58,964 nt of DNA, taken from assembly GCA_018822365.1 (NCBI GenBank), contig JAHJKL010000027.1, forward strand, positions 1 through 58,964, given 5' to 3'. The DNA comes from Candidatus Margulisiibacteriota bacterium (GTDB taxonomy: Bacteria; Margulisbacteria; WOR-1; O2-12-FULL-45-9; XYB2-FULL-48-7). Positions 32,237 to 55,666 of this stretch are shown here, in pieces. The translations under genes were made by a program, and so were the position numbers. The first letter of the stretch is position 1, and each line of letters opens with the position of its first letter. The notes under the pieces were generated by a model that ran no database searches, was not told the origin of the DNA, and worked only from the letters and a program-made list of their open reading frames with translations.

Positions 32237-32263
32237 TATCGTCAAAATTGCGTTGAAATTTCA
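32237..32263 (-). promoter_or_regulatory. Sigma-28-like promoter, proximal
   Basis: TGAAATT (32263-32257), 15 nt, CGATA (32241-32237), 21 bp before ATG 32216. One of six identical-spacing copies. Confidence 0.65.
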
Positions 32264-32300
32264 GGCGTTTTCATCAAACCCGTTTTTCCCGCTAAAGTAT

Positions 32301-32327
32301 TATCGTTAGGATCAGCTGAAAATTTCA
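32301..32327 (-). promoter_or_regulatory. Sigma-28-like promoter, distal
   Basis: TGAAATT (32327-32321), 15 nt, CGATA (32305-32301), 64 bp upstream of the proximal copy and 7 bp past the previous stop codon. Tandem promoters for the lipoprotein-barrel operon. Confidence 0.6.
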
Positions 32328-32333
32328 TCTGTT

Positions 32334-32984
32334 TTAGAAGTTGCACTTTGAGTCGCCAGGATTCAGGTCGCAAAAAGTGCGCGGGCGTGCTGGTGCTGGT
32401 GGTTTTTGGCCGGTTGATGTTGGAACAGGATTTGCAGGGAGAGCCAGATAGATATCGATTATCGAAAAGATCTTGTCAAGATTGCTTGATCGATCGTAAG
32501 CCATCAGGGCAACAGTGTATTTGCCAGGACGGGCGGCAAGCGTCACGTTGGAAATAGTTACTGTATTCCCGGAAATCGCGACGTTTTGGTCAAGCAGGGG
32601 GATGGGGGAAGTGTTATCGGCGGCAATAAGCCTGGCTGAGAACTTTAGATCATTGGGGATAGTTGTTCCGGCCGGGAAAGTAAAGACCAGGTTGGTTGAG
32701 CGGCCGATGGTAATGGGAGTTGGCAGGGTTGGGACAAGACCTTTTATTCCGTCCAAATGGGTCGCGACAATGGTCGCTCTCACGGTTGGAGCGGCGGTCG
32801 CGGTTGGACAAGCGGGGGTTGGAGCCGCCGGCAAGTTAACGCATCGGGCGTCAATAGGGGCCGATGATTTTTCGCAGCCAACACCGGAGCGCAACGCCAG
32901 AAGCATGGCGGCCGGAGCGGCAAACCGACGGACAAAATTAACAACCCGGGCGTGATTAGCAATTGAACTGGTTCTAATAGACAT
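32334..32984 (-). CDS. Lipoprotein-like protein with CDxNPxDSKCNF tail
   Basis: The start is ATG 32984, 7 bp after GGAGG; the TTG at 32999 overlaps that site. The 216-residue product has a basic N-terminus, a hydrophobic stretch and a weak lipobox (RSGVGC, Cys37). Its core (about 90-190) resembles a carbohydrate-binding or Ig fold with FTFPAGTTIPNDLKFSARL and GKYTVALMAYDRSS. The tail is FCDLNPGDSKCNF, matching the neighbour at 31119-32216. It is monocistronic between its own sigma-28-like promoter and the distal promoter downstream. Function unknown. Confidence 0.72.
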   Translation of the reverse strand: MSIRTSSIANHARVVNFVRRFAAPAAMLLALRSGVGCEKSSAPIDARCVNLPAAPTPACPTATAAPTVRATIVATHLDGIKGLVPTLPTPITIGRSTNLVFTFPAGTTIPNDLKFSARLIAADNTSPIPLLDQNVAISGNTVTISNVTLAARPGKYTVALMAYDRSSNLDKIFSIIDIYLALPANPVPTSTGQKPPAPARPRTFCDLNPGDSKCNF

Positions 32985-33024
32985 TGTTTTTCCTCCCAAA
33001 GATATTAATAAACTACCAAGTATC

Positions 33025-33051
33025 TATCGGGGGATAATGGGAAAAATTTCA
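33025..33051 (-). promoter_or_regulatory. Sigma-28-like promoter
   Basis: TGAAATT (33051-33045), 15 nt, CGATA (33029-33025), 40 bp before ATG 32984. The region behind it (33055-33140) is G-rich on the + strand with no gene. Confidence 0.65.
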
Positions 33052-33245: not shown

Positions 33246-35198
33246 CTAATACAGCGAAGCCTTCAGTGTCGGGCGCTCCTGTGTGGTTGAGGGAACAAAG
33301 CCCTTTTCCCACTCATACAGGTCTTTGATCTTGGTGCTGGCAAGAGATGTCTTGGCCAGGACGTCGACCGCCTGGGAACGGAGCATCGCCTGTTTCGGGT
33401 TGAGCCGGTTGTCGGAGACAAAGTTCAGCATCCCGGCCGACTTGGCCGCTTCAATGTAGCGGGCGGCCCAGTGGTAGGCGGGAACGTCCCAGTATGGCTT
33501 GGCGTTGACCTCGGCCAGCGGGAGCTTGTCAAAACGGACCAGGACCGCGATCCCCTCCGCCTTGCTGATCTTGTTGTTCGGGCGGAACGATTTGTCCGGG
33601 TAGCCTTTGACCAGCCCTTCGCGCTGGGCAATTTCGACGTACTTGGCGGCCCAGAAATCAGGCTTGACGTCCTTAAATACTTGGCGGCCGCGTTCATCTT
33701 TGACATCGTAGCCTTTGGCCCTGACCAGCAGGGTGGCCAGTTCGGCCCGGGTGAGCGGCCGATTCGGTTTAAAATCGCCGTCCGGGTAGCCCTGGATCAG
33801 GCCGACGGTAGCATTGTTCTCGATCGGCATTTTGGCCCAGTACCCTTCAGGGACGTCGGCAAAAGAGGTCAGGCGGACAATGCGCAGGTCTTTGGCGCCG
33901 GCGTTCCCTTCGGTATCATAGGCTTTGACGACTAGCAGCTTTTTGCCGTACTGGTTGACCGGGACGTTGACCTGGAACTTGCCGTCCGGTGAAACTACCG
34001 CGTTGATGTCGTTGACCTTGACGGTCAGGTTCTTGGCGACGTCGGGAGTGATCCCTTCAACCCGTCCGGTGACCGCGACGTTGTCCGAATAGACGATCGA
34101 CTTGTCGGCCGGGCTCTCGAGCAGGACGGTGTATTCGCGCTTTTTATCCTCGCCAAGGTAGCCGAACGAGAAGTAGTGGGTGGTGTTCTCGCCGATCTCG
34201 GAATATGGGTGGTAGGCGTAATTGAACTCGACCCCGGAGTAGCGGATGCCGATCCCGGCGGTCAGGTCGCTGTTGTCGCTTCCGACGCGCAGGGCCAGGT
34301 TCTCGACCGGCCAGAATTCGAGGCCGGTGTAAATGGCTGATGGCTTTTTGCTGCTCAGGTTGATGTCGCCGTCAACGGAGAGGTAGAGCTTGCGGGTAGC
34401 GTGGGTAAAATAAGCTTTGTTGCTTTCACCGATCAGGTTAAAACGCGAACCAAGCTTCAAGGTCGGGGCCAGGCTGTCGTCTGTCTGCCCGCCGCTGGAA
34501 TTGAGCTTGCTCCCTACGAGGACGTTTTGGAAAACCCCGCCAAGCATGACCTGGTTGTTGACCGGGAAGAGGACCCCGAGGTCGGCGTTGAGCGCTGTTC
34601 CGCCAACGGTCGCGACATTTGTCCCTTCGCCGCCGACACTGATATATTTCAGGTTGGCGCCGAGCAGGATATCTTTATTGAAGTTTGAATTGAAAGCGCT
34701 TAAAAAGGTGCCGTATGAGAGTGTGAGGACATGGTTTCCCCAGCCCCCTGTTCCGAGTACATTGCCGGTCGAATCGGTGATCGGGATGCCGGAAAGGCGG
34801 GCGCTGGCAAAACCAAGGCCGAGGGTCGCTTTCTGGTTGATCGGATAGGCGCCGCTCAATACGCTGTAGCCAACGTCTCCCATGACGGACGAATACATGG
34901 CGCTGACCTTGGGTCCGGTGATCAGGGCGATCCCGGCCGGGTTAGCAAAAACCGCTTCGCCGTTTTCGGCAACAGCGACATATGCCCGACCCAGGCTCAA
35001 CGCTCTGGCCCCAACCGCGATACCGGTCGGGTCGGCGATATAGCTGGCGGCGTGGGCAGGGGAAATAAGCTGTAAGCTGTAAGCGATAAGCAAGGCAAGC
35101 ATCCCCTCACCCACCATTCGCCAGAGCGAATGGTCCCCCCTCTCCCTGTGGGAGAGGGGCCGGGGGTGAGGGTTGAGATAATTATTTACGTTGTTCAT
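33246..35198 (-). CDS. PorV-like barrel with C-terminal SLH domains (copy 2)
   Basis: ATG 35198 is 8 bp after GGAGG; the longer frame runs into the upstream gene. The N-terminus (MNNVNNYLNPHPRPLSHRERG...) comes from a palindromic element and precedes the real signal (ALLIAYSLQLISPAHA). The mature protein begins with the PorV/UPF0164-like segment GARALSLGRAYVAVAENGEAVFANPAG and an eight- to fourteen-strand barrel (to about 340). An Ig-like domain (about 360-460) follows, then three SLH repeats: YWAKMPIENNATVGLIQGYPD, FWAAKYVEIAQREGLVKGYPD and HWAARYIEAAKSAGMLNF. SLH domains bind peptidoglycan or secondary polymers, so the protein could link outer membrane and wall. Paralogue of 36997-38907. 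Confidence 0.85.
   Translation of the reverse strand: MNNVNNYLNPHPRPLSHRERGDHSLWRMVGEGMLALLIAYSLQLISPAHAASYIADPTGIAVGARALSLGRAYVAVAENGEAVFANPAGIALITGPKVSAMYSSVMGDVGYSVLSGAYPINQKATLGLGFASARLSGIPITDSTGNVLGTGGWGNHVLTLSYGTFLSAFNSNFNKDILLGANLKYISVGGEGTNVATVGGTALNADLGVLFPVNNQVMLGGVFQNVLVGSKLNSSGGQTDDSLAPTLKLGSRFNLIGESNKAYFTHATRKLYLSVDGDINLSSKKPSAIYTGLEFWPVENLALRVGSDNSDLTAGIGIRYSGVEFNYAYHPYSEIGENTTHYFSFGYLGEDKKREYTVLLESPADKSIVYSDNVAVTGRVEGITPDVAKNLTVKVNDINAVVSPDGKFQVNVPVNQYGKKLLVVKAYDTEGNAGAKDLRIVRLTSFADVPEGYWAKMPIENNATVGLIQGYPDGDFKPNRPLTRAELATLLVRAKGYDVKDERGRQVFKDVKPDFWAAKYVEIAQREGLVKGYPDKSFRPNNKISKAEGIAVLVRFDKLPLAEVNAKPYWDVPAYHWAARYIEAAKSAGMLNFVSDNRLNPKQAMLRSQAVDVLAKTSLASTKIKDLYEWEKGFVPSTTQERPTLKASLY
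35066..35093 (-). repeat. 7-bp tandem repeats in signal-peptide codons
   Basis: Four imperfect units of the form TAAGCNN on the + strand within the signal peptide of the PorV-SLH gene (copy 2). Unit length 7 is not a multiple of 3, so gain or loss of a unit would shift the frame. Confidence 0.5.
35103..35172 (-). repeat. REP-like compound palindrome inside coding sequence
   Basis: Outer arms CCCTCACCC (35104-35112) and GGGTGAGGG (35164-35172) enclose two hairpins: CCATTCG/CGAATGG (35114-35120, 35127-35133) and CCCCTCTCCC/GGGAGAGGGG (35137-35146, 35150-35159). Translated it gives PHPRPLSHRERG, a peptide known from dispersed palindromic repeats in many bacterial genomes. Confidence 0.75.
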
Positions 35199-35212
35199 TT
35201 TTATGTCCTCCA

Positions 35213-36904
35213 TTATCGTTTCACCACGAGGATCTTCCCTTTGGCCAGCAGGCTCTTGGTATCCTCGTTGACGACTCTTAAGAGATAGGCGCCGTTGCTG
35301 ACCATTTGGCCCCATTGGTCGATCCCGTTCCAGGTGATCTGGCTGGCGGAACCAGTCGATTTATAGACCAGCTGGGCCGCCATGTCGTAGATGTAATAGC
35401 CGAGGCGGGAAGCGCCGCCGGTATTGCTGACGACAATATTGACCTGCTCGGTCAGCGGGTTGTACGGATTGGGGAAGATCTGGGCGACATCGCCCGCAGC
35501 TGAAGCGGTGACCTGGAAGTTTACCGGAGTCGAAATAAAGGTCGTAACCACCGATGGATCAGCGGCTGACGGAGCGGACACTTTGACGTCAACGGCGTAG
35601 AGCCCGGCGGCCAGACCGGCCGGCAGGATTGCTTCGATCGTGGTGTCGGTCCAGTTGAGGACCACCCCTTCGGTCAGGGCAGAAGTAGAAAGGGAAGTAA
35701 ACTCAAGCGCGCGGCTGGCGCTGGTCGTGCTGTCGCGGAAACCGGTCCCTTCCACGATAATTCTGACCCCGGCCGGTCCTTTGGCCCGATCCGGGTCTGT
35801 CGCCAGCGAACCTGAACGATAGATATTGGTAATGACCGGTGAAGTTCCCGGAGTCGGCGGGATCGGCGGCGTTGATCCGCCAACGGTAATGTTGACCGTC
35901 GCGACGTTGGAGTAGGCTGTCCCGTCATTAGCCCGGTAAGTGAAGCTGTCGGAGCCGGTATAGCCGGTGGTCGGGGTGTAAGTGACCTGGCTACCGGAAA
36001 CAGTGCCTAGACTGCCATGTGTCGGGTTGGAGACGATCGAGTAGGTCAATGGGTTGCCGTCCGGGTCGCTGGCGCTGAAGTTGACCGTGGTTGACGTGTT
36101 GCTGGCGGTGGAAGTTGTTACGTCATTGGCGGTCGGCGCATGGTTGACGCCGCCGGAAGCGTTAACAGTAAAAGTGACGGCATTACTGGCTGAAGCCCCT
36201 GGATTAGTAATAGAAACAGTCCGATCTCCCGTGGTGGCCGAGGCCGCGATACTGATGTTAACCGTTGCCTGGGTCGCGCTATTTATAGTTGTTGAATTGA
36301 TCGTGATCCCGGTTCCGCTGAACGCGGCGGTGGCGCCATTCTGGATATTGGTTCCAGTTAATACGACCGCCAGATTGCTGACCTCCTGGGTCCCGTTGTT
36401 CGGGTTGATCCCGCTTAAAGTTGCCGGGGTAACGGCGGAAGAGATGTTCACTGTTGTGGCAAAGCTTGCTGGTTTGTAAGTATAAACAAAACCGGAGCCG
36501 ACACTACTTGGGATCGAGGTCCCATAGTTTCCCGAAGGACTCCCGGTTCCGTTCCAGGTGTCCCAGGCCCGGATGTAGATGTAATTGCTTTGCGTAATAT
36601 TGCAGGCGCCGGAAAAGTTGCCGGCGGCAGAGAGCGTTCCGGAAGAGATGACCGTGTCGCCAGCCGGCAGGCCGGTGGAGCTGTTTGGCGCTCCTGCAGT
36701 GTTATCGGTTGATTGGATAAGTTGCACGTAGCGGCCAGCGGGTAAAAGGGTCCCTCCGACCCCGGTGTTATTGTAGATCTGATTGGCTGGTGAATTAGTG
36801 TTGTTGCAGGAAACTGTGACAGCGGTGGCATTGGCAATACCAGTAAAAGCGACCAGTGATAACCAGACAACTAACATGGTCCCAAGGAATTTTTTAATTT
36901 TCAT
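35213..36904 (-). CDS. IPT/cadherin-like surface protein with FlgD-Ig C-terminus (short)
   Basis: ATG 36904 follows GGAGG by 7 bp; ATG 36910 lies too close to it. The 563-residue product has a signal peptide ending GIANA. The N-terminal domain (VSCNNTNSPANQIYNNTGVGG...) is nearly identical to that of 38969-42010. Next come an IPT/TIG domain (about 165-245), a cadherin-like domain (NHAPTANDVTTSTASNTSTT), a second IPT, and a FlgD-Ig-like end with IFPNPYNPLTEQVNIVV, ITWNGIDQWG and KGKILVVKR. This tail resembles the C-terminal sorting domains of type IX secretion cargo. The PorV-SLH gene starts 15 bp downstream. Confidence 0.83.
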   Translation of the reverse strand: MKIKKFLGTMLVVWLSLVAFTGIANATAVTVSCNNTNSPANQIYNNTGVGGTLLPAGRYVQLIQSTDNTAGAPNSSTGLPAGDTVISSGTLSAAGNFSGACNITQSNYIYIRAWDTWNGTGSPSGNYGTSIPSSVGSGFVYTYKPASFATTVNISSAVTPATLSGINPNNGTQEVSNLAVVLTGTNIQNGATAAFSGTGITINSTTINSATQATVNISIAASATTGDRTVSITNPGASASNAVTFTVNASGGVNHAPTANDVTTSTASNTSTTVNFSASDPDGNPLTYSIVSNPTHGSLGTVSGSQVTYTPTTGYTGSDSFTYRANDGTAYSNVATVNITVGGSTPPIPPTPGTSPVITNIYRSGSLATDPDRAKGPAGVRIIVEGTGFRDSTTSASRALEFTSLSTSALTEGVVLNWTDTTIEAILPAGLAAGLYAVDVKVSAPSAADPSVVTTFISTPVNFQVTASAAGDVAQIFPNPYNPLTEQVNIVVSNTGGASRLGYYIYDMAAQLVYKSTGSASQITWNGIDQWGQMVSNGAYLLRVVNEDTKSLLAKGKILVVKR

Positions 36905-36910
36905 TATCAT

Positions 36911-36959
36911 ACCTCCGAGTATACTTGAATCCAATAAAACTAATTATGCACTCGGAGGT
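36911..36959 (-). promoter_or_regulatory. Leader hairpin that sequesters the Shine-Dalgarno
   Basis: In the mRNA, ACCTCCGAGT (36959-36950) and ACTCGGAGGT (36920-36911) are perfectly complementary over 10 bp, separated by 29 nt. The second arm contains the ribosome site GGAGG of the gene starting at 36904. No T-tract follows, so translational control (thermometer or trans-acting factor) is likelier than termination. Confidence 0.65.
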
Positions 36960-36975: not shown

Positions 36976-37004
36976 ATTATATCAAGACTACAGGCATTAG
37001 TAAA
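36976..37004 (-). promoter_or_regulatory. Sigma-70-type promoter of the short IPT gene
   Basis: TTTACT (37004-36999), 17-bp spacer, TATAAT (36981-36976). The -35 overlaps the last codons of the upstream PorV-SLH gene. The transcript would begin about 10 bp before the sequestering hairpin. Confidence 0.6.
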
Positions 37005-38907
37005 CTGACGCCCTGATCTTTGGCCGATCGTCGGGCGTGAACTCTTTCTGGAACCCTTTTTCCCAGGTGTAGAGGTCTTTGATCTTGCCGCTGGCCAGGG
37101 AGGTCTTGCCTAACATGTCGACTGCCTGGGAGCGGACCAGGACCTGTTTGGGGCCGAGCTTGTTGCTGCTGACGAAATTAAGCATCCCGGCGTCTTTGGC
37201 CGCCTGGATATGGCGGGCCGCCCAATGATGGAGTGAAACGTCCCAGTAAGGCTTGGAGTCGACTTCGACCAGGGCGAGCTTGTCGAAGCGGACGAGGACC
37301 GCGATCCCTTCCGCTTTGCTGATCTTGTTGTTGGGGCGGAAGCTTTTGTCCGGGTAACCTTTGATCAGCCCTTCGCGCTGAGCGACTTCAATGTACTTGG
37401 CCGCCCAGAAATCCGGTTTGACATCTTTGAACACCTGGCGGGCGCGGCTGGCGGGAAGCTCTATCCCCTTGGCTCTAACGAGCAGGGTGGCGAGTTCAGC
37501 CCGGGTCAGGGCGTTGTTCGGTTTAAAGTTGCCGTCCGGATACCCCTGGACCAGGCCGACGGTGGCGTTGTTCTCGATCGGCATTTTGGCCCAGTACCCT
37601 TCGGGGACGTCGGCAAAAGAGGTCAGGCGGACGAGCCGGAGCTCTTTGCCGGCGCTGTCGCCGGCGGGAGTGGCAGCTTCGATCGCGACCAGCTTTTTGC
37701 CGTATTTGTTGACCGGTGCATTGGCGGTAAAGGAGCCGTCCGGCATGACCTGGGCGTTGATCCCATTGACCTTGACGGTGACATCTTTGATGGTCCCGCC
37801 GACTTCACCTTCGGTGAAATTGACCTTGCCGGAGACCTTGACGTTGTCGTCGTAAATGACCGCTTTGTCCGACGGCGAGTCGACCGAGAGCTGAAGTGTC
37901 CGTTTGGTCGGGTCGCCGACATAGCTGACCGAGAAGTAATGCGAAGTGTTCTCGGTGATCCCGCCATAAGGATGATAGGCGTAATCAAAAGCGACCCCGG
38001 AGACCCGGACGCCGACCCCCAGGGTCATATCGCTGGCGTCGGAACCGGCCCGCAGGGCGAGGTTGTCGGTCGGCCAGAACTCGACCCCGGCGTGCAAAGC
38101 ACCCGGGACACTGGTCCTGGTCGGATAATAATCGTAATCAACATTGGTATAGAGCCGGCGGCTGGAATTGGTGAAGAGCCCTTTCCCTTCTTTATCCATC
38201 AGGGCGACTTTGGCGCCGACCTTCAGGGTTGAAGGGATCGAGTCGTAATCGTTGCCGGACTTGGTGATCTTGGCGCCAATGCTGGCCGGGAGGGCGTTCT
38301 GCAGGGTGACCCCAAGAGTGGCGTATTCGTTGGCCGGGTAGAGGGCCGAGAGATCGGCGTCAAAACCGGAGCCGGAGCCGTCGATCCCGGAACCGCCGAC
38401 ATTGAAATATTTGAGATTGGCCCCAATGGCGATATCTTTTCCCATATTTAAATTAAGCGGAAGCTCACTTAAATAGGTGCCGTAGGAGAGAAAAAGGACA
38501 TTGCTCCCCCAGGTCAGGTTTGAACCGGTGATCGCTCCGGTATCGTCGCGCAAAGTAATGTCGGCCACGCGGGAGCTGACCAGTCCGATCCCTATAGCTG
38601 ACCTTTCGCCATAAGGAAAGGCGCCGCCGAGAATGGTGTAGTTGACGTCACCCAGCAGGTTGGTGTACATGCTGGAGAGTTTGGCGGACGAAATACCGGC
38701 TATCCCTGCCGGATTGGTGAAAATAGCGTCGCCGTCTTCGGCCATGCCGACGTAAGCCTTGCCCATTCCCATGGAGCGGGCACCGACACCGATGCTCATC
38801 GGGTCGGCGAGGTAGCCGGTGGCGAAGGCAGGATTAATAAGCTGTAAGCTTAAAGCTGTAAGCAATAAGAAAGCGACACAAGCACGCGATAATTTGATGT
38901 TTAGCAT
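36997..38907 (-). CDS. PorV-like barrel with C-terminal SLH domains (copy 1)
   Basis: ATG 38907 is chosen: GAGGGGG lies 8 bp upstream and the signal peptide (CVAFLLLTALSLQLINPAFA) starts cleanly. The upstream ATG 38958 overlaps the -35 of the sigma-28-like promoter and cannot lie on that transcript. The 636-residue product has the PorV-like start GARSMGMGKAYVGMAEDGDAIF, a barrel, an Ig-like domain and three SLH repeats (YWAKMPIENNATVGLVQGYPD, FWAAKYIEVAQREGLIKGYPD, HWAARHIQAAKDAGMLNF). DNA identity with copy 2 is very high around the SLH region. Likely an outer-membrane/wall linker or substrate shuttle. Confidence 0.85.
   Translation of the reverse strand: MLNIKLSRACVAFLLLTALSLQLINPAFATGYLADPMSIGVGARSMGMGKAYVGMAEDGDAIFTNPAGIAGISSAKLSSMYTNLLGDVNYTILGGAFPYGERSAIGIGLVSSRVADITLRDDTGAITGSNLTWGSNVLFLSYGTYLSELPLNLNMGKDIAIGANLKYFNVGGSGIDGSGSGFDADLSALYPANEYATLGVTLQNALPASIGAKITKSGNDYDSIPSTLKVGAKVALMDKEGKGLFTNSSRRLYTNVDYDYYPTRTSVPGALHAGVEFWPTDNLALRAGSDASDMTLGVGVRVSGVAFDYAYHPYGGITENTSHYFSVSYVGDPTKRTLQLSVDSPSDKAVIYDDNVKVSGKVNFTEGEVGGTIKDVTVKVNGINAQVMPDGSFTANAPVNKYGKKLVAIEAATPAGDSAGKELRLVRLTSFADVPEGYWAKMPIENNATVGLVQGYPDGNFKPNNALTRAELATLLVRAKGIELPASRARQVFKDVKPDFWAAKYIEVAQREGLIKGYPDKSFRPNNKISKAEGIAVLVRFDKLALVEVDSKPYWDVSLHHWAARHIQAAKDAGMLNFVSSNKLGPKQVLVRSQAVDMLGKTSLASGKIKDLYTWEKGFQKEFTPDDRPKIRASVY
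38838..38872 (-). repeat. 7-bp tandem repeats in signal-peptide codons
   Basis: Five imperfect TAAGCNN-type units (+ strand) in the signal peptide of PorV-SLH copy 1, at the same place as the repeats in copy 2. Confidence 0.5.
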
Positions 38908-38930
38908 TTGGCGTTTCCCCCTCGTATATA

Positions 38931-38957
38931 TATCGTCAAGTTTGGTGAAGAATTTCA
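38931..38957 (-). promoter_or_regulatory. Sigma-28-like promoter of PorV-SLH copy 1
   Basis: TGAAATT (38957-38951), 15 nt, CGATA (38935-38931), 24 bp before ATG 38907. It decides the start codon of the gene. Confidence 0.65.
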
Positions 38958-38968: not shown

Positions 38969-41900
38969 TTACTTCTTGACGACGAGGATCTTTCCCTTGG
39001 CGATCAGGCTCTGATTCTCGTTGTTGACTATCCGGACCAGGAAAACCCCGTCCCCGACAGTCAGGTTGTACATGTCTTTTCCGTCCCAGGTGAACTGTCC
39101 GCCAGTGATGTTCTCCCTCTTGACCAGCCTGGCGGTCATGTCGAAAATATAGACCCCAATGTTGGTGGCGCTTCCCGGGTCGAACTCCACTTTAAGCGGG
39201 TTGCCGCTGTTTGGATTGAACGGCGTCGGGTAGGCGATGATCGTTCCCGGAGGGGGGGCGGCCGCGGTAACGGTGAAAGCGGCCGGATTGGAATAGAACG
39301 ACCGGATGATGCTCGGGTCAGAAGCCGATGGGACTTCTACCAGGACCTTGACGTCGTAGGCGCCGGTCCCCAGGGCGGCAGGAACGGTCAGAGTGATCTG
39401 GGTCGATTCCCAGCTGATAATGGAAGCTTCAACAATTGCCCCAGCTCCCGAGATGAACAAGACCTTGCGGGAGGTGCTGGTATCTTTGTCCCGAAAGTTG
39501 TAGCCGGTGATCGTCATCCTGGTCCCGGCCGGCCCGATGGTCGGGTCGATCGAGGTGATGACCGGATCGTCCCCGGTTGGCGGAGGCGGTGGCGGGGTGC
39601 TCCCGGTCGACGCAAAAATGCTGTCGATATACTGGTAATTGGCGGTTGTTCCCTTAGCCGTATAGACAAAGTTATAGCTTCCGACGTTGGACCAGTTGAA
39701 GCTGGCGTCGGCGCCGGCGTCACTCCCGTCCTTGTCGTAGGCAAAGCTTGATTTGTCAAGGCTGACCAGGCCGTAACCGGAAAGGGCGGTCAGAGTCGTG
39801 TTGGTTATGGCAGCGGCATACGATGTCCCGTCGGCGTCTTTGAGGCTGACTTTTACGTCGTTGCTGGAGCCGTCCCATTTGACGTAGAGATTGATCTTGT
39901 CCGCGCTGGAGAGGTTGAGCTGGTTAGCAAGAGCCGCTCCCCAGCCGCCGCCCCAATCGGAGGTGTAGGAATATTTGACCTTCATCCCTTTGGCCCCTTC
40001 TTTGGCCGCTTCGGCTTGCGGGCCGTTGGCGGTAATGGTGCTGTTGTTGGGTTCGATCCCGGTCCCAAAAGCGTAGTAACCGGAATCCGGATTCCCGTCG
40101 CTGTTGTTGTCAATTGTCCAGTTGCCGACCGAGCCCCCTTCAAAATCTTCGAGGTAGGTCCGGCTGGTGTCAACCGTGACCGAGCTGTTGCCGGTTTTGC
40201 CGGAAACAGTAACTACGACCTGGGCTGAACCGCTGGCGACCCCGGATGGGATCGCGACAGAAATAGAGCTGTCGCTCCAGGCAGCCGGCTTGGCGCTCTG
40301 GCCGCCAATAGTAACCGTGCTGGCTCCTTTGCCGGCGCCAAAGTTGGACCCGCTGATAATAATAGTTTGGCCAAGATACGCGGTCGCCGGGTTAATGCCG
40401 GAGATGTTTGGCGTAGTCACAACCCCCGCCGGATCGATTGTGATCGAGAGAGCCCTGGTTGCCGTCTTGGCGGCTGAGTCGGTTACCTGGACCGTGAAGT
40501 TAGCTGTTTGAGCGGTGGTCGGCGTTCCCGAAATCATTCCGGTTGAAGTGTTGAGCGACAGACCGGCTGGTAATGACCCAACAGTAATTGCCCAAGCGGT
40601 GTAAGGCGCGGTGCCGCCGGACGCTTGCAAAGTTTGACTGTAGGTGACACCGACGGTCCCGTTGGGGAGACTGTTGGTAGAGATGCTAAGCGCCGGAGGA
40701 GCGCTGTTGATCGTCAAAGGCTGCCCGTTACTGGCGACGCCATTAACAGTGACGACCACGTTGCCGGAAGTTGCCCCGGTTGGAACCGCGATATCGATCT
40801 TGCCCGCGCTCCAGTAGTAAAATGCGGTAACAGCGGTGCCGTTGATCGCGATCGTGCTGGTTCCTTGAGTTGCTCCAAAATTAGAACCGATAATCGAAAT
40901 GCCGTCGCCGATGCCGGCCGAAGTGATCGGCACGCCGGGGGCGCTGGTTTGCTCCAGCCTGGTGATGGTCGGAGCGGTTGAAACAGTGTTAACAGTTAAA
41001 ATCGCGCTGCTGGTCAAGACCCCGGCATCATCAGGGTTGGTCAGGGTGACGGTTCGCGCGCCGGCAGTTGCTCCGGCGGCGACGGCGACGTTGACGGTCA
41101 GCTGGGTCGCGCTGTTGTAAGTAACGGCATTAACGGTGATCCCGGAGCCGCTGAAAACGACATTAGCGGCGGTCCAGGTCCCGCTATGGAAGCTGGTTCC
41201 GGTTAACACGACATTGCCGGTAAAGCCCTGGTCGGCGGCGGCCGGATTGGCCGAGGTCGCCAAAGGGCCGGCGTTGACGGTAAACACGGTCGCGTTGCTG
41301 GCCGCGGCGCCTGGATTGGTGACGGTGACATTTCGGGCGCCGGTGCTGGCGGAGGAGGCGACGCTGATGCTGACGGTTAACTGGGTCGCGCTGTTGAAAG
41401 TGACTGAATTGACGGTGATCCCACTGCCGCTGAACTGGACAGTGGCGCCGTCCTGGAAATTGGTCCCGGTCAGAGTCAGATTTTGTGATTGAGCTCCCTG
41501 ACCGCGGCTGTTGGGGGAGATGGTTGAAAGCGTTGCCTGGACCGGCAGGTCGGTTGTAGTCGCGAAGCTGGCCGGTTTATAAGTAAAAACAAAGCCAGAT
41601 CCGACACTGCTTGGGGCAGAGGTGCCGTATTTGCCGGAAGGAGCGCCTGTTCCGTTCCAGGTTTCCCAGGCGCGGATGTAAATATAATTGCTGGATGATA
41701 TGTTGCCGCTGCCGGAAAAATTGCCGTTGGTCGCCAGTGTTCCGGTCGAAACAATGGTGTCGCCAGACGGAATGCCGGTCGTTAGATCAGGGTTACCGGG
41801 AGTGATGTCCGCTGATTGAATTATTTGAACATACTTGCCGGCGGCGAGAAGGGTTCCTCCCACGCCGGTGTTGTTATAGATCTGGTTGGCCGGGCTATTG

Positions 41901-42010
41901 GTTCCGTTGCAGGAAACGGTTGCGGCAACAGCGTTAGCCGTTCCAGCCATTAACGTTACCGCCAGTAACGCCAGAAACAACCCTTTTAGAAAACTTAATT
42001 TATTGATCAT
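38969..42010 (-). CDS. IPT/TIG surface protein with CBM-like and FlgD-Ig domains (long)
   Basis: A 1013-residue secreted protein (signal ending MAGTANA). N-terminal VSCNGTNSPANQIYNNTGVGG domain, three to four IPT/TIG domains (about 165-450), a putative-Ig (He_PIG-type) domain (LPNGTVGVTYSQTLQ), another IPT, then a jelly-roll segment like a carbohydrate-binding module (TYLEDFEGGSVGNWTIDNN, about 625-790). A last IPT and a FlgD-Ig-like tail with AYPTPFNPNSGNPLKVEF, FTWDGKDMYN and KGKILVVKK complete it. It is the long paralogue of 35213-36904, and PorV-SLH copy 1 lies directly downstream. Glycan binding or adhesion is inference. Confidence 0.83.
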   Translation of the reverse strand: MINKLSFLKGLFLALLAVTLMAGTANAVAATVSCNGTNSPANQIYNNTGVGGTLLAAGKYVQIIQSADITPGNPDLTTGIPSGDTIVSTGTLATNGNFSGSGNISSSNYIYIRAWETWNGTGAPSGKYGTSAPSSVGSGFVFTYKPASFATTTDLPVQATLSTISPNSRGQGAQSQNLTLTGTNFQDGATVQFSGSGITVNSVTFNSATQLTVSISVASSASTGARNVTVTNPGAAASNATVFTVNAGPLATSANPAAADQGFTGNVVLTGTSFHSGTWTAANVVFSGSGITVNAVTYNSATQLTVNVAVAAGATAGARTVTLTNPDDAGVLTSSAILTVNTVSTAPTITRLEQTSAPGVPITSAGIGDGISIIGSNFGATQGTSTIAINGTAVTAFYYWSAGKIDIAVPTGATSGNVVVTVNGVASNGQPLTINSAPPALSISTNSLPNGTVGVTYSQTLQASGGTAPYTAWAITVGSLPAGLSLNTSTGMISGTPTTAQTANFTVQVTDSAAKTATRALSITIDPAGVVTTPNISGINPATAYLGQTIIISGSNFGAGKGASTVTIGGQSAKPAAWSDSSISVAIPSGVASGSAQVVVTVSGKTGNSSVTVDTSRTYLEDFEGGSVGNWTIDNNSDGNPDSGYYAFGTGIEPNNSTITANGPQAEAAKEGAKGMKVKYSYTSDWGGGWGAALANQLNLSSADKINLYVKWDGSSNDVKVSLKDADGTSYAAAITNTTLTALSGYGLVSLDKSSFAYDKDGSDAGADASFNWSNVGSYNFVYTAKGTTANYQYIDSIFASTGSTPPPPPPTGDDPVITSIDPTIGPAGTRMTITGYNFRDKDTSTSRKVLFISGAGAIVEASIISWESTQITLTVPAALGTGAYDVKVLVEVPSASDPSIIRSFYSNPAAFTVTAAAPPPGTIIAYPTPFNPNSGNPLKVEFDPGSATNIGVYIFDMTARLVKRENITGGQFTWDGKDMYNLTVGDGVFLVRIVNNENQSLIAKGKILVVKK

Positions 42011-46901: not shown

Positions 46902-47876
46902 TTATTCCACCACCCTTACAGTAAATTGGACGTTAAAACCATAACCGGAGTAAGAGAGCCCTTCGGTATTAACCCCGAACTGGGCGGTCCCTGTCCAGTG
47001 CATGGCCCCTGAAGTAAAAAATTCTGGTTTCAGCTCGACAACAGCCGGCGCGGCATAAGCGGTCCCGCCTTCCAGGCTGGTCAGGGCTGTCGGTAATTCG
47101 CAGGAAGTTCCGACAATATTTGGAGAAGTTTCTATATCAAACGTTGATTCCTGGGGGGCTACCGGCTGGCCGTTGTTTGAGATCTTTGAAACAGCCTTGA
47201 ACATGGTCAGGTAAAGCGGGGTTATCAGGTCGCCAAGCTCATCGGCAGGGACGGAACTGATAAGGTATTGGCCGTTGCCGTCCAATGCCAGATTCGCGAC
47301 GCCGGGGATACATGGATATGTCGCGTTAGGGGCCCGCATCGGGTCGTCATAGAGGTTAGGGAGTTGGGTCGAATCGGTGACAAATTCAACCACGACTTTG
47401 CTGGCGTTTTGGATCCCCGGAATTACCATTGGGGTGCCGTCCAGGACTTGCAGGGTGAAATCCGCGGTCACAAAAACGGTCTTGCCGATCTGCTCGGCCG
47501 GGACATAGAGCCAGTCTGATTGGGCGAGAATGCCGACCGGCGGATCTTGTTTGACCTCTTCGGAAACCGCGTCGGTTTGAGCGGCGGCTTCGGGCTGGGC
47601 GATGACGTCGGCCAGAGCGTCGGCCCGGCCGCCGTCAAAAGTGCTGAATGAACCGGCGTCGATCCCGTTTTCGGCGATCTCCAGTCCGGTAGGCCGTCCG
47701 TCAGATCCTCCGCCGCAGGCGAGGCTGTTGAGCAGGCCAAGTGCGCCGACCACGCCAAAAGTCCGAGAAGTTAAACGCAGTTGAGACGAGAGTCTTTCTC
47801 TGGCCGCCGTGGCTATGGTCGCGACGTTATTGTAGGTGGTCGTTAATCGGCTGACTGATCTGGTGCTGTGAATCAT
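46902..47876 (-). CDS. Probable lipoprotein, unknown function
   Basis: ATG 47876 is 7-8 bp after AGGAGG. The 324-residue product has a long polar N-terminus, then a short hydrophobic stretch (FGVVGALGLLNSLAC) with a weak lipobox at Cys54 and a GGGSDG spacer. An acidic linker (about 70-110) leads to a beta-rich domain with SDWLYVPAEQIGKTVFVTADF and repeated strands. No known family recognised. First gene of a probable operon with the 1622- and 1013-residue proteins (gaps 4 and 18 bp) behind a sigma-28-like promoter. Confidence 0.72.
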   Translation of the reverse strand: MIHSTRSVSRLTTTYNNVATIATAARERLSSQLRLTSRTFGVVGALGLLNSLACGGGSDGRPTGLEIAENGIDAGSFSTFDGGRADALADVIAQPEAAAQTDAVSEEVKQDPPVGILAQSDWLYVPAEQIGKTVFVTADFTLQVLDGTPMVIPGIQNASKVVVEFVTDSTQLPNLYDDPMRAPNATYPCIPGVANLALDGNGQYLISSVPADELGDLITPLYLTMFKAVSKISNNGQPVAPQESTFDIETSPNIVGTSCELPTALTSLEGGTAYAAPAVVELKPEFFTSGAMHWTGTAQFGVNTEGLSYSGYGFNVQFTVRVVE

Positions 47877-47942
47877 TTTTTTTCCTCCTGTAAAACGGGC
47901 GAGGGGCCTTTTGGCCGCGCGCTCCTATTCCTTCCTTATATT

Positions 47943-47969
47943 TATCGACATCCTCTGGGGGAAATTTCA
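47943..47969 (-). promoter_or_regulatory. Sigma-28-like promoter
   Basis: TGAAATT (47969-47963), 15 nt, CGATA (47947-47943), 66 bp before ATG 47876 and 7 bp past the stop of the coiled-coil gene. Confidence 0.65.
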
Positions 47970-49826: not shown

Positions 49827-52800
49827 TTATCCCATTAATAATTCCAGGATCTTGGTCCTGGAGGCGATACATTGCATATTGATCCAGCTATCGGAGACGT
49901 ACTGCTGCTTGATCTGTTCAAGCCGCTCGTTCTCCAGCTTAACGATTGTTTCTTCTTCGTCGGTTAGTTCTCCTTCAACGTCAGCAAGAGCGCCTAGTGC
50001 CCGAAGATAATTCCTAACCGATTTGATGTCGTTAATATCAAAAGTGGGCGCCAAGGTAAACCTGGCCGCTGGCGCCGTTGGGATGGCTGGGGCAGGCGCT
50101 GGTTGTGATACAGCGATCCTTTCGCACACAGAAACCGGGATCATTGGATTGCCATCATTATCAAACTTGAGTTCGAGGTCAGCCTTGATCCGCCAGCCGT
50201 CGATCTCCTGGCCAGCTTTAGCCTTAGCGGAACTGATCTTGTCGCCGTTAAAAAAGAGGACCGATCCGGCCAGCCAGGTCGTGTCGCCGATCTTTTGCTG
50301 GTTTTTGACCTCAAGCACGTCCCAGTTGCCGTCATTTTTCAGGTAAACGGTATTGCCGGCGGCTACCCCTTCCCATTCGCCAGCGGGAGTGATTGAGATG
50401 ACGGTTCCGTATGAACTTATTTCGATCCGGGAATCGGCCGGCAGATTGGCGAAGGCGTTACTAGCGTCAACGAGCTTTGTTGGATCAGACGGAACGGTTA
50501 AAATAAAGGACCGATCGTCTTCGTTGATCTCAAGCTCCAATCCTGAGCCGATCAAAAAGTCGCCGATCGGCAGGTCGGCTGAAGGGACAATGATCTCTTT
50601 GTCGCCGGGGGTCTTGAGGATCGCTCCGGATAAAAATTTAACATCAAAAATAGTTATTTCCTGATTATATTTGGTGGCAATGGTTTCGCCTCTGTCGCTA
50701 AACCAGAGTTGGGCTCCCGCCTTGGTCTCTCCCATATCAGCGCCGATAATAATACTGGAAACCTGTTGGGATAGGTTGTCAAGAATGACCTTTGAGCCGG
50801 GCGGGTAATCGGTCCCGTAAATATTCAGATGGGCGCCGAGCTCGATGCTGCCGATCTCGCCGGTAGCCGAGAAAACCAGCCAGCTGCCGTTGGTAACCGG
50901 TTCGGCAAGATGGGGGAGGGTTAAGGAGCCAAAGAATCTGGCTTCGACTAAGCGCTCGGTTGTTGAGTCGTAAACCAGCCGGCTGTTGGCCGAATAATCA
51001 ATGCCGTTGATATTCCTGGTGTTGCCGTTGGCAAGCTTCAACCTGACCGTGGTTCTGTTGCCGGCAAAGTTCAATTTGGTCCGGTGCGGGTGGAAAAGGC
51101 CAAAGATCTTCTGTTCGCCGTAAAGCTCGGCGCCGATCAATGAATCATTCTCATAAAAGAGATAGGTGCCGGCATTAAAATTAATAGAATGAATAGTTCG
51201 TTCACTGCCGAGGCGGGCGCTTTGTAATTCGCCTTGTTCATTGAACCAGACCCTGTCCCCGGCCAAAAATTGCGGGCCGCCAAGGTTTTGCGGGGCCGAT
51301 AAATTAGCGCTAATCAGCTTTCCTTCAGGAGAAAAATATAAGACCGTCCCCTTTTGGTAGCCGATGTTATTGATGATTTTTGGCTCGGCCAATTCAACCG
51401 AACGCAGCGGCCTCGTGTTTTCCGCGTGATAGGTGATACTGTCGCTGGCGATCCTGGTCGGGTTCTGTTCGCCGGGCAAAACCACCTGGAGGGCGGCTTT
51501 GGCTGGAGTGGACCGAAAGGCAAGGTCCCCTTTTTTGTCGGTGACCAGGTCGGCGATAATTACGGTAGTATTGTCCCCTTCTTTCCCCGCCTCTCTCATA
51601 TGCTCCAAAGCAACTTCGGCAAGTAACTGCGCCCGGCGGGCTGCCGGGAGATGAGCGTTGTTGATCAGCAGGTTTCGCAGGACGTCAAAAGAGATAAAAC
51701 CGTGCAACCCGTCGGTCGACAGCAATAAGGTGTCCCCCGGTTTTAGTTCTATATTTGAGCGGCTGACATTTTCCGGGCCATTTAAATGACCCAATGGATT
51801 CAGGATTTCCCCCTGCGCTGTCATGGTAAATTCATGGTAATCGGCTGTTTCGGCCTGATCAAATGGATAGGCGGTCGCTCCATTTAAGTCGACCAATTCT
51901 TTAACTTTACCATTCTGGGCGCCCCACTGGAGAGTGTGTTTGTGATTGTCAACGGTCCGCAGCAAAAGCTCTCCGCCGCGCAGGATGTATAGTCTGGCGT
52001 CGCCGGCCCAGGCGACCTGGGCATTCTTTCCTTCAATAAATATTGTGGCCGCGGCTGCTCCCATGCCGCTCAAGGGCTCCGCGTTTGCCGGCTGGGTTTG
52101 CGCCCGAAACTTGATCGCTTCGTCGGCAAAGAACAGGGCTTCGGCCGCGTTGAGAGATCTGTTTTGCGTTCTGCTTAAGTAAGCCTGTCTGGTCTTGTGA
52201 ACGGCAATATCCGCGGCAACTTCTCCTCCGTTGTGTCCCCCCATGCCGTCAAATACCCGCAAGTAAAGTCCGTCGATCGCCGCGGCGTCTTCATTATTCG
52301 CCCGGCCGTTGACCGAACAAAAGCCCCCTAGACCCAAGCCGATGTGTAGAGAAGTATACGCAGCTCCTTTGGTGGTGGAGGCGTATGTCGGCGCATTAGG
52401 CGTGGTTAGCCTTCTAATAATAGCTCTTAATATTAAATAAGGTAAGAGAACCGGGCTAAAAACCACGTAACCGAGCCATTTGAACGCCTTCAAAGACAGG
52501 CTGGGCTGCTTGGCCGCTGGGGCCGGTCTTGCCGCTGGCGGGAGAGTAGGGATCTGGGACGGAGCTGGCGGCGTGATCGGCAGCCTGACGGTTGGCGGCT
52601 CTTCTTCAGTCGGGGCTTGTTGTACAGATGCCGGAGTAACGACCAGCGGGGGAGTAATGATTGGCGGTGCAGTTGACGCCTGGGCCTGTTCCGGCTTGAG
52701 CAGTTCTAAGATTTGCGTGGTCAGCGCGCCAAGCTGCTGATGCGAAGTCAGCGGCGTTAATCCGGTCAATATCGCCTGCTCGTTGCAGACGATCCCTTTC

Positions 52801-52955
52801 TGGACGGCGGCAAGGAGTTTTTGCGCGTTCTCGATCCTGACCGACAGGTCAACCTTGCCGCTTTTGTTGGTGACAAGCGACAGATAGGTCCTTTCTATTT
52901 TTGAAAAGCGAGTGTAGGAAGGATGCGAAGTGGTTATACGAGCGATCACGTTCAT
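49827..52955 (-). CDS. PP2C-type Ser/Thr phosphatase with membrane segment and beta-repeat C-terminus
   Basis: 1042 residues. A small N-terminal domain, Pro-rich linker, a hydrophobic segment (YVVFSPVLLPYLILRAII, about 168-185) and then a full PP2C domain (about 205-475): NNED, DGMGGH with Asp236, AWAGDARLY, LLLSTDGLHGF and EGDNTTVIIA with Asp461, all metal-binding acidic residues present. The rest (about 500-960) consists of roughly 39-residue repeats of the form 'G-x-x-F-x-A-G-x-x-V-x-F...G-x-L'. Short helical C-terminus. It reverses phosphorylation by the kinase encoded upstream, whose stop overlaps its ATG. The repeat region is unusual for PP2C proteins. Confidence 0.9.
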   Translation of the reverse strand: MNVIARITTSHPSYTRFSKIERTYLSLVTNKSGKVDLSVRIENAQKLLAAVQKGIVCNEQAILTGLTPLTSHQQLGALTTQILELLKPEQAQASTAPPIITPPLVVTPASVQQAPTEEEPPTVRLPITPPAPSQIPTLPPAARPAPAAKQPSLSLKAFKWLGYVVFSPVLLPYLILRAIIRRLTTPNAPTYASTTKGAAYTSLHIGLGLGGFCSVNGRANNEDAAAIDGLYLRVFDGMGGHNGGEVAADIAVHKTRQAYLSRTQNRSLNAAEALFFADEAIKFRAQTQPANAEPLSGMGAAAATIFIEGKNAQVAWAGDARLYILRGGELLLRTVDNHKHTLQWGAQNGKVKELVDLNGATAYPFDQAETADYHEFTMTAQGEILNPLGHLNGPENVSRSNIELKPGDTLLLSTDGLHGFISFDVLRNLLINNAHLPAARRAQLLAEVALEHMREAGKEGDNTTVIIADLVTDKKGDLAFRSTPAKAALQVVLPGEQNPTRIASDSITYHAENTRPLRSVELAEPKIINNIGYQKGTVLYFSPEGKLISANLSAPQNLGGPQFLAGDRVWFNEQGELQSARLGSERTIHSINFNAGTYLFYENDSLIGAELYGEQKIFGLFHPHRTKLNFAGNRTTVRLKLANGNTRNINGIDYSANSRLVYDSTTERLVEARFFGSLTLPHLAEPVTNGSWLVFSATGEIGSIELGAHLNIYGTDYPPGSKVILDNLSQQVSSIIIGADMGETKAGAQLWFSDRGETIATKYNQEITIFDVKFLSGAILKTPGDKEIIVPSADLPIGDFLIGSGLELEINEDDRSFILTVPSDPTKLVDASNAFANLPADSRIEISSYGTVISITPAGEWEGVAAGNTVYLKNDGNWDVLEVKNQQKIGDTTWLAGSVLFFNGDKISSAKAKAGQEIDGWRIKADLELKFDNDGNPMIPVSVCERIAVSQPAPAPAIPTAPAARFTLAPTFDINDIKSVRNYLRALGALADVEGELTDEEETIVKLENERLEQIKQQYVSDSWINMQCIASRTKILELLMG

Positions 52956-55618
52956 GCCGAACCTCCGTTTTCATCGTCAAGGTCGTCCTGAATAAAATTG
53001 ATCAGGTAGGTGATCGCGGAACGGGCGGCCGCTTTGAGCTCCGCGTCCTGTTCGGCCTTGATCAGGCGTTGAAGCACGGTTACCAGTTGGCCGGCAACGG
53101 TCGGATCGTCGACGTATTGCTCGATATTCCTCAACAGCTTGAGCCGGCTGGCTTTATCGCCGGTATTGACCGATTGGGTAAGCTGTCCGATGGTCGGGGT
53201 CTGGGAAAGCAACGGATTGGTCAAGCTGTCGATATGGGTCGGTTCCTCCCCTGAAAGCCTTTGGCTGGTCGGCGGATCGCTTGGTTTGACCTTGCGAATT
53301 GCCGGGGCGGTTTTAACCTCGATCGCGGAGAGGTTCTCTTGGATGCTGATAATGCTAAGCTCGCTGTCATCCAAGCGCTCCTGATCTTTTAGTTTAACTA
53401 CGAACGCCTGTTCAAGCTCGGCCATTGAATCGAACGCCGTGTGGGAGATTCTGTTCTGGCAAACCCCGATCTCCAGGATCGGGAACAATACGGTGGAAAC
53501 AGTTCCTTCAACCGGTAATTCTTTAACTACATCTTTATTGTTGATCGTGGCGACCCGCCGGATCACTCCTTTGAACTCCTGGAGCAATCTCCCTTCCTTG
53601 CTGATCAGGAGTGCGTGCGCGAACTTTCCTTTTTCCAGGAAGGGGTTGCCGTCCTGGCCGGAGAATTCCCAAACCGGCTGGGAACCGGAAGCGAGCTGGT
53701 AAAGGGTGGCGCAAATGCCGAAAATATCGTTTTGGACCTTGTTTTCCCACACTTCTGGGGCTTTAAGGTAGCCGGGGTAGCCGTAAGAAGGGGTCCCGAC
53801 CAGCATGCCGGCCTGGGTGAGATCGGTGCCGTCCTGGGTTTTAGCCAGGCCAAAATCACCCACTTTGATCTGCCCGTTATGGATGTTATAAAAAACATTC
53901 CCCGGTTTGATGTCGCGATGGGCCATATGGAAATTCTCATGAAGATTCTTCAAGGAGCGGGCCAGAAGGAGGCCGATCCGTAACAGGATGTTCGGTTTGG
54001 AAAAGTCTGACGTCGGCGAAAAAATGTCGCTGGACAGGGTGACCCAGTTGGTCGGGTCCAGGTATTCCATGACCATGGCCGGCTGGTTAGCGGCAGTAAC
54101 CGCGTAGTGGTGCATAGCGACGTAGCTGGAACGGAGCGGCTCGGCGGTTTCGTCGCAGACCTTTTTTTGGTTGACGTATTCTTGCTTGAAGCGGTTTGCC
54201 GCTTCCGGGTCGTTGGTCGATGCGGTAGCCAGCAGTGACTTGACCGCAACTTGTTGATTTGTCCCAAAATCCCAGCCAAGGTAAACCTCTCCCATCCCGC
54301 CGGCGGCGACAAAACGGCCGCTGGCGTTGGTCCCGATGTTGTCCGGGTCCTGGTTGGGGAGGGCGGGCAAGAGATAATATTTTTGCGTGTATTGATTTTC
54401 CGGACGGTTCGGGTCGACCGCGGTGATCGTCAGCCCGAGATCGGTCGAAAGCAAGATGAGCATCACTTTCAGGGCCTCTGTTCTTGGGGCTATTTCCCCC
54501 TGGCGGGCGTAAGTGTTGTAAGCCGCGGGGCTGGCCTGCAGTGAAGCGAGGAGACGATAGGCCGGCCAGGCCAGGCGGAGTTTATCCAGGGGGGTTCCGG
54601 GTAAAGCGTTAAGATCAAGGTCCAGGATCAAATCGTAAATGACCGGTCCAAGGTTTTCCAGGATAACGAATTTATCTTTGGAAGCCTCAAATAATGAAGG
54701 CAGAAGATGCCGTTCCGGGTGGCTCTTGATCATTTCGATCAGAGCTTGTTTTCTGTCATGGGCAAGCTTTTTTTCGAGCTGGGCGACCAGCGTCGGCATG
54801 TCAATGATCCCGCCGTTATTGTTGTTCGGCAGGTCATTCTTGGCCTCATTTAATTTTTTACCATTCAAATGGGCCATTTCCTGTCTGACCTTTTCGCTGA
54901 GCTCTTTAGGGAGCCGAATTAAAAGGTAATCAACTTTCTTGGCGTTCTTTAGGCCGACAAGGTGGCGGGCCAGGCTCTCTTCTCTTCCGACCGCGAGCTT
55001 GGCGAGCTCCCTGACCGTTGATCTGGCTCTGGAGTCGCCTATCATCTGTATGACTCCGACCGTGATCATGGTTCCTGCTCCGACGATCATGGCTGGGATC
55101 CAAAACGGCAGAGTGATGGGGAGAAAAGAAAAAGCGGCGCTGACCGCCAGGGAGGATGAAGCAAAAAGACCGGCGGCGGTGCTGGCGGCGGCCCCAAGGC
55201 CAAGCATAAGGTTGCTGCGCCAGAATGAGTCGTGGCGTTTAATGAAAACGGTCATTTTTTTGTCCAATTCGTTGCTAATGGAAGGGATAGTTTGTTTAAG
55301 GGCCTGCCCGGCAACGCGAGTTGTCGAGTCGCTGTTGCTGGCCATGAAGACCGCGGGGATATTTAAAAGGTCCCGGTTTTGCGGGGTGCCGGCGATCGCC
55401 GGTTCGCCAAGCGAAGAGGTGTTGGGGAAAAGCGCGTCAGCCGCCCGGTCGGTGACCTGAATAAAAGCTCTTCGACCGAATTGTTCAAGGCTGGTAAGCG
55501 ACAAGAGCGAACGTCTCTCTTCTCCCGGATAGATGCGTCGGAATAACTGCCGCGGAGCGGTCAGCGGCCTTCCGGCCGGTTGGTTATGGTCTATTCTGAC
55601 GATCGGTCTATTTTGCAT
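52952..55618 (-). CDS. Hanks-type Ser/Thr protein kinase with internal membrane segment
   Basis: 888 residues. The N-terminal region (to about 420) includes two hydrophobic helices (SSSLAVSAAFSFLPITLPFW and AMIVGAGTMITVGVIQMI, about 150-190) and a helical part. The kinase domain (about 430-720) has the glycine loop VAAGGMGEVYLGW, Lys460 in VAVKSL, AHRDIKPGNV with catalytic Asp569, DFGLAK with Asp588, and APE in the activation loop. A HEAT-like helical C-terminus (about 815-885) may be a docking part. ATG 55618 follows GAGGAG. First gene of a kinase-PP2C-coiled-coil operon behind a sigma-28-like promoter. Confidence 0.9.
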   Translation of the reverse strand: MQNRPIVRIDHNQPAGRPLTAPRQLFRRIYPGEERRSLLSLTSLEQFGRRAFIQVTDRAADALFPNTSSLGEPAIAGTPQNRDLLNIPAVFMASNSDSTTRVAGQALKQTIPSISNELDKKMTVFIKRHDSFWRSNLMLGLGAAASTAAGLFASSSLAVSAAFSFLPITLPFWIPAMIVGAGTMITVGVIQMIGDSRARSTVRELAKLAVGREESLARHLVGLKNAKKVDYLLIRLPKELSEKVRQEMAHLNGKKLNEAKNDLPNNNNGGIIDMPTLVAQLEKKLAHDRKQALIEMIKSHPERHLLPSLFEASKDKFVILENLGPVIYDLILDLDLNALPGTPLDKLRLAWPAYRLLASLQASPAAYNTYARQGEIAPRTEALKVMLILLSTDLGLTITAVDPNRPENQYTQKYYLLPALPNQDPDNIGTNASGRFVAAGGMGEVYLGWDFGTNQQVAVKSLLATASTNDPEAANRFKQEYVNQKKVCDETAEPLRSSYVAMHHYAVTAANQPAMVMEYLDPTNWVTLSSDIFSPTSDFSKPNILLRIGLLLARSLKNLHENFHMAHRDIKPGNVFYNIHNGQIKVGDFGLAKTQDGTDLTQAGMLVGTPSYGYPGYLKAPEVWENKVQNDIFGICATLYQLASGSQPVWEFSGQDGNPFLEKGKFAHALLISKEGRLLQEFKGVIRRVATINNKDVVKELPVEGTVSTVLFPILEIGVCQNRISHTAFDSMAELEQAFVVKLKDQERLDDSELSIISIQENLSAIEVKTAPAIRKVKPSDPPTSQRLSGEEPTHIDSLTNPLLSQTPTIGQLTQSVNTGDKASRLKLLRNIEQYVDDPTVAGQLVTVLQRLIKAEQDAELKAAARSAITYLINFIQDDLDDENGGSA

Positions 55619-55639
55619 CTTTTCTCCTCGCTTTAATAT

Positions 55640-55666
55640 TATCGTTAGTTAACAGAAAAAATTTCA
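55640..55666 (-). promoter_or_regulatory. Sigma-28-like promoter of the kinase operon
   Basis: TGAAATT (55666-55660), 15 nt, CGATA (55644-55640), 21 bp before ATG 55618 and 10 bp past the stop of the PKD gene. Confidence 0.65.

Follow-up and report, generated by a model that had tools for sequence, protein, structure and literature searches.

The Escherichia coli sigma-28 consensus is TAAAGTTT-n11-GCCGATAA, and in the E. coli aer promoter a T-to-C exchange at the first base of TAAA lowers activity from 223 to 23 units (PMC2859248). FliA-family sigma factors are also used in programmes other than motility, as by WhiG of Streptomyces and sigma-28 of Chlamydia (PMC8325347; PMC10597470). In Staphylococcus epidermidis, the primary sigma factor gene sigA is served by a sigma-B-dependent promoter (PMC2824700). 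Here, a 58,964-nt contig (C27, hereafter the window) from a WOR-1/Saganbacteria metagenome-assembled genome (MAG) was analyzed, in which the motif TGAAATT-N15-CGATA recurs upstream of genes for kinases and surface proteins. The MAG (G000) comprises 1.68 Mb in 88 contigs and is 95% complete. We interpret the motif as the promoter of an alternative sigma factor of the FliA/WhiG (sigma-28) superfamily that would control a regulon throughout the class WOR-1/Saganbacteria, with the sigma factor encoded on contig C13 (hereafter C13 sigma) as its candidate reader; we assign this interpretation a probability of about 0.68. Extracytoplasmic function (ECF) sigma factors of the SigW type, by comparison, use promoters of the form TGAAAC-N16-CGTA.

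The six copies reported for the window in the initial annotation were all recovered with exact coordinates and strand (Table 1). Only 0.01 copies were expected, and six were reached in none of 100 dinucleotide shuffles. The scan of the whole genome yielded 33 copies, compared to 0 for the reversed pattern. The spacing proved to be as constant as had been claimed: in 422 kb of sequence from this genome, TGAAATT-Nk-CGATA occurred 19 times at k = 15 and not once at any other k from 8 to 23, and the 17-nt distance from GAAA to CGATA, likened before to sigma-28 geometry, was present at 19 of 19 sites. Single-substitution variants of the 12 fixed bases were almost absent from the same 422 kb, a few being tolerated solely at the last T of the -35 element and at the T of CGATA; exchanging the -35 G for A, C or T left 0, 0 and 1 matches, respectively. 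CGATA is followed by A or T. On its upstream side, T is preferred at -15 and a purine at -14, and the GC that precedes the -10 element is kept only in part (purine at -14, A or C at -13).

Although about 93% of the genome is coding, nearly all copies in it lie upstream of a gene on the same strand. Two are apparently intragenic: 38931-38957 overlaps only the start of an over-long open reading frame (ORF) with 38907 as the likely start codon, and the other lies within a doubtful 86-aa ORF ahead of bipA. The motif was not found deep inside genes of this genome, contrary to the equal frequency within genes that would have spoken against a promoter. The description of the window copies as always standing just before a gene or operon has to be relaxed for 32301-32327, which precedes a second copy (a tandem pair, 64 nt apart) and not a gene. 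The imperfect plus-strand copy does exist, with one mismatch, but the next ORF is about 110 nt away; it is not convincing and was not counted.

While the 12 core bases were set by the search pattern, flanking signals such as the initiator were not imposed. A purine was found 8 nt past CGATA in 97% of 101 motif copies from class genomes, mostly with a pyrimidine just before it. It was present in 93% of leaderless, 98% of Shine-Dalgarno (SD)-led and 100% of ORF-less cases. Distances to the start codon were determined for 101 sites, some of which lie outside the class. At 32 sites the start codon is located 7–13 nt past CGATA, in no case with an SD sequence; none is located at 14–16 nt, and nearly all at 17 nt or more are preceded by an SD sequence. 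Merely 5 of the 101 sites have a start codon closer than 7 nt. Since a start codon cannot precede the transcript start, the floor at 7 nt fits initiation at +7/+8. Thus, as far as can be judged from sequence, the initiation point 6–8 nt past CGATA proposed initially agrees both with the pyrimidine–purine initiator at +7/+8 and with the start codons, which respect that floor. The distances also fit a regulon in which a large minority of the predicted mRNAs are leaderless. In addition, the motif leads directly into short RNA-like stretches with a terminator hairpin and T-run (C61:33169, C29:7934 and the orthologue in the relative G064), so that a translational element cannot explain it. Taken together, there is a strong case that the motif represents the promoter of one alternative sigma factor heading a regulon.

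The small RNA-like units have the form GAAGCG..GACATACCTTTTC..CACTTCTGTCGAGACAA, followed by the terminator (G000 C61:33169-33300 and C29:7934-8060; G064 C1:1305603). Between species the terminator stem changes in sequence and keeps its form. A search of these units against Rfam gave no match at the gathering score, the sole match being a tRNA elsewhere. A further copy, C55:7910-7936, is conserved in G064 with no clear gene behind it, perhaps serving a small RNA or a short peptide; an rRNA operon downstream was ruled out, as rRNA signatures were lacking.

The motif was present in 31 of 31 genomes of the class, with 8–184 copies each against 0–2 for control patterns, and was patchily distributed in the other classes of the phylum. 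Comparison with G064, a one-contig relative of 98% completeness, showed that 20 of the 29 regulon proteins found in G000 match a G064 regulon protein, though the N15 spacers are only 71% identical. As an independent one-gene test, 20 class genomes from several families were chosen by the position of rpoD. The exact motif was located just upstream of rpoD in 19 of them, and the twentieth (G073) carries an N16 version. The distance to the start codon was 42–54 nt where the start was parsed (that of G059 was not). Thus, a predicted alternative-sigma promoter stands before the primary sigma factor gene across the class. Literature searches on Saganbacteria flagella or WOR-1 promoters returned nothing on the subject among the matches.

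The proposed "surface/kinase regulon" contains both kinds of gene and turned out to be much broader, including rpoD class-wide. In the window, it comprises a Hanks kinase–PP2C–coiled-coil operon, SLH/PorV-like and Ig-type surface proteins, and lipoproteins. Elsewhere in the same genome, it includes RpoD, BipA/TypA, further kinases, a histidine kinase, a response-regulator protein, a RelA/SpoT-domain protein, TPR proteins, a GH116-family protein and the small RNA-like units; GH8, GH26 and PKD proteins and more kinases are added in relatives. The 804-aa RelA/SpoT-domain protein (G000 C84; L072:7384-9798) has an N-terminus resembling that of the window kinase. According to a hydropathy scan, many large regulon proteins whose domains are of extracellular type lack both a Sec signal and a transmembrane segment. 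Such PKD, GH8 and GH26 proteins are encoded at 55677-58886 of the window, L226:1786-14546 and L250:3430-8268. Regulon proteins may be exported via the type III gate of the flagellar apparatus.

No flagellar gene had been seen in the window, but the genome does encode a basal body and the export gate (FliP, FliQ, FliR, FlhB and FlhA), at C13:10716-21363 and C52:17001-26214. Neither flagellin nor FlgM exceeded the family cut-offs in any of the 31 class genomes, and both were found in flagellated sister families. FliG is shortened to about 150–184 aa in nearly all class genomes, compared to the 338-position model. Throughout the class, the genes run flgH-I-J-sigma-flgB-C-fliE-F-G-H-I, with the C13 sigma gene behind flgI/flgJ and ahead of flgB, although a flgJ match was not obtained in every genome. 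The gene run containing the C13 sigma gene is headed by flgF, and in G000 and its closest relatives flgF has a sigma-70-type promoter, TTGACT-N17-TATAAT. In these genomes, the region before flgF was also searched for a different kind of promoter that might reveal the partner of the other sigma factor, but only RpoD-type TTGAC/TATAAT elements were found. In the same genomes (C13:10640-10716 and orthologues), the flgF ATG follows about 9–10 nt past TATAAT, making this near-consensus RpoD promoter probably leaderless as well.

The sigma-28 family gene called for by the initial annotation was sought by a census of sigma region 2 across the class genomes and by protein searches; superfamily genes are present, but they are not canonical FliA. 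RpoD and the C13 type were the sole sigma kinds found in every class genome of at least 85% completeness. The C13 sigma factor (241 aa; C13:14970-15695, between flgJ and flgB) has the FliA_WhiG model TIGR02479 as its best match, over the full model length and with 141 bits, i.e., below the cut-off of 189.6. Its relatives of solved structure are a WhiG-type sigma factor and FliA. It clusters with another group found across the phylum (support 96/90), apart from the canonical FliA of the phylum, and its gene is 95% identical to the counterpart in WOR-1 bacterium RIFOXYB2_FULL_45_9. The -35 recognition helix of C13 (SRPKVCRV) has diverged from the canonical SESRISQIH, which fits the changed -35 element TGAAAT. 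Thus, C13 is the likely reader of the motif, at about two in three.

Several observations weigh against C13. It is missing from G063 (79% complete), and C13-type sigma factors are also encoded by flagellated families that have few motif copies (G028, G029), where specificity must therefore differ. No anti-sigma factor was found, and co-transcription from flgF to the sigma gene is an assumption. Moreover, a sigma factor of about 198 aa whose gene immediately follows flhA (C52:25618-26214) is only slightly less widespread, its type being present in nearly all class genomes. C52 is the main rival to C13 as best candidate: the same promoter would be read by this two-domain protein, which carries sigma-28-superfamily regions 2 and 4 and likewise has a flagellar gene location. 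Two-domain sigma factors often use a TGAAA-type -35 element, as in the ECF promoter TGAAAC-N16-CGTA. Yet the C52 type was not found in G072, the genome with the most sites (184), although this absence could be a gap in a 90%-complete MAG. The -35 helix of C52 (SESQVSRI) is closer to canonical FliA, whose -35 element is TAAA, and C52 has no region 3, whereas T at -15 and a purine at -14 are favoured in the promoter, ahead of CGATA. Reading by C52 is therefore considered unlikely, though it should be kept in mind.

The geometry TGAAAT-N16-CGATA is shared with SigW-type ECF promoters, and the source genome encodes one ECF sigma factor as well as an odd protein with sigma region 2 on contig C55. 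That either of them reads the motif is very improbable. No ECF sigma factor was found in G048 (94% complete, 112 sites), G055, G068, G069 (100%) and G071, and the C55 type was detected in G000 alone in the class census. As general readers, both ECF sigma factors and the C55 protein are ruled out by that census, barring missed genes. The C55 gene itself looks like a target, with CGAAATT-N15-CGATA upstream, and probably belongs to the regulon. Its product (C55:18821-21076, minus strand; 751 aa) has sigma-70 region 2 near the N-terminus, then about four repeats of about 95 aa, and no region 4 match.

A bipartite motif of fixed form might also be a repressor or activator site over ordinary RpoD promoters. 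This is hardly credible for an element that is non-palindromic, has a single orientation to the gene and keeps a constant distance to the initiator and to leaderless start codons; moreover, it contains no TATAAT, while the RpoD-type flgF promoter looks canonical in the same genomes. Least probable of all, despite the CGATA element, the sigma-28 spacing and the flagellar genes, are canonical FliA promoters in a motile organism with flagellin genes that the assembly failed to capture, given that flagellin and FlgM are below cut-off class-wide yet seen in flagellated sisters and are lacking even from the one-contig G064, that no canonical FliA was seen in the class, that the -35 element is TGAAAT instead of TAAA, and that FliG is truncated.

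For the C13 sigma factor, the following scheme is proposed. With TGAAATT as -35 and CGATA as -10 element, transcription would start 8 nt past CGATA. RpoD would drive the flgF-headed run and, if this is co-transcribed, the C13 sigma factor would be made from the flagellar basal-body operon and read the motif. By driving rpoD in turn, it would join the primary sigma factor in a positive loop, to which genes for the envelope, signalling and translation would be tied. As flagellin and FlgM were not found, a sigma factor from a flagellar family would here serve a non-motility programme. Both the RpoD–C13 loop and type III export are put forward as hypotheses. Their combination into a class-wide rewiring of flagellar regulation, in which a sigma factor from a flagellin-less operon with short FliG has ceased to serve filaments and drives the rpoD loop together with Sec-less kinases and PKD, GH8 and GH26 proteins that may be type III-exported, is tentative and rather doubtful. 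Since the promoters are stringent and bipartite and many targets are leaderless, the regulon can be read from sequence alone, which makes the hypothesis accessible to in-vitro tests that need no culture. For an uncultured class of Margulisbacteria, the analysis provides a regulatory map at the level of promoters, in which dozens of unknown genes are assigned to a single regulon. The results also suggest that sigma factors of flagellar type can persist after loss of the flagellum and share command of the primary sigma factor gene.

The genes named as targets in the initial annotation were supported and are listed with their promoters in Table 1. The motif also precedes the G064 orthologue of the 1069-aa PKD protein; in the window, the upstream region of this gene runs into the contig end.

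Table 1. Predicted promoters and target genes in the window.
Position	Strand	Feature	Basis or remark
55677..58886	-	1069-aa PKD-domain protein, without Sec signal or transmembrane segment	hydropathy
55640..55666	-	promoter, predicted start near 55632; SD and ATG 21 nt downstream (kinase gene)	exact match; site kept before G064 orthologue
52952..55618	-	888-aa Hanks-type Ser/Thr kinase, first operon gene, no N-terminal signal peptide	PF00069 9.7e-21; hydropathy
49827..52955	-	PP2C-type phosphatase, 4-nt overlap with kinase gene, putatively co-transcribed	PF13672/PF00481
47976..49817	-	613-aa coiled-coil protein, probable third gene of kinase operon	ORF 9 nt downstream; weak TACC_C coiled-coil match
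47943..47969	-	promoter, predicted start near 47935; ATG 66 nt downstream	exact match; spacer 15/15 identical in G064
46902..47876	-	324-aa protein, lipoprotein-like N-terminus (LNSLACGGGS)	
42029..46897	-	1622-aa TIG/Big_5 protein, probably same operon, downstream of 324-aa gene	putative operon
38969..42010	-	1013-aa TIG/He_PIG protein, probably same operon as 1622-aa gene	putative operon
38931..38957	-	promoter, predicted start near 38923; SD, then ATG at 38907	exact match; conserved in G064
36997..38907	-	PorV-like barrel with SLH domains, Sec signal peptide	SLH 1.9e-28; hydropathy; PorV-like by N-terminal sequence only
35213..36934	-	573-aa Big_9/cadherin-like protein, probable operon member	
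33246..35315	-	689-aa SLH-domain protein, probable operon member	SLH 3.2e-29
33025..33051	-	promoter, predicted start near 33017; ATG 40 nt downstream	exact match; conserved in G064
32334..32984	-	216-aa putative lipoprotein	
32301..32327	-	promoter, upstream member of tandem pair, predicted start near 32293	exact match
32237..32263	-	promoter, downstream member of tandem pair, predicted start near 32229; SD and ATG 20 nt downstream	exact match
31119..32216	-	365-aa putative lipoprotein (LLGGC)	
21245..21271	+	one-mismatch copy (CGACA)	not counted as site

In comparison with FliA promoters, the motif shares the -10 element CGATA(A), the distance between the elements, a FliA/WhiG-family protein as best candidate reader and a sigma gene inside a flagellar locus. 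The likeness to sigma-28 promoters noted initially stands for spacing and for the CGATA core of the -10 element, but not for the -35 element, which is TGAAAT and not TAAA, with a near-invariant G where FliA needs T. Unlike in FliA systems, the GC of the extended -10 is weakly kept, the targets are not flagellar, and flagellin and FlgM were not found in the class. TAAA does occur at the same spacing, ahead of CCGATA or CCGAAA, in some flagellin upstream regions of the flagellated sister families. There is thus good reason to regard the promoter as sigma-28-type with a real difference at -35. SigW-type ECF promoters resemble it in the TGAAA of the -35 element and in spacing, but they differ in the -10 element, which is CGTA/CGTC instead of CGATA, and ECF sigma factors are missing from several site-rich genomes. 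As for WhiG and the chlamydial sigma-28, a FliA-family sigma factor would be put to non-motility use, but with other targets, another -35 element and a sigma gene within a basal-body operon. Finally, as for sigA of S. epidermidis, the primary sigma factor gene of the dnaG operon would also be served by an alternative sigma factor, which is sigma-B there, whereas here a sigma-28-type promoter is kept across the class.

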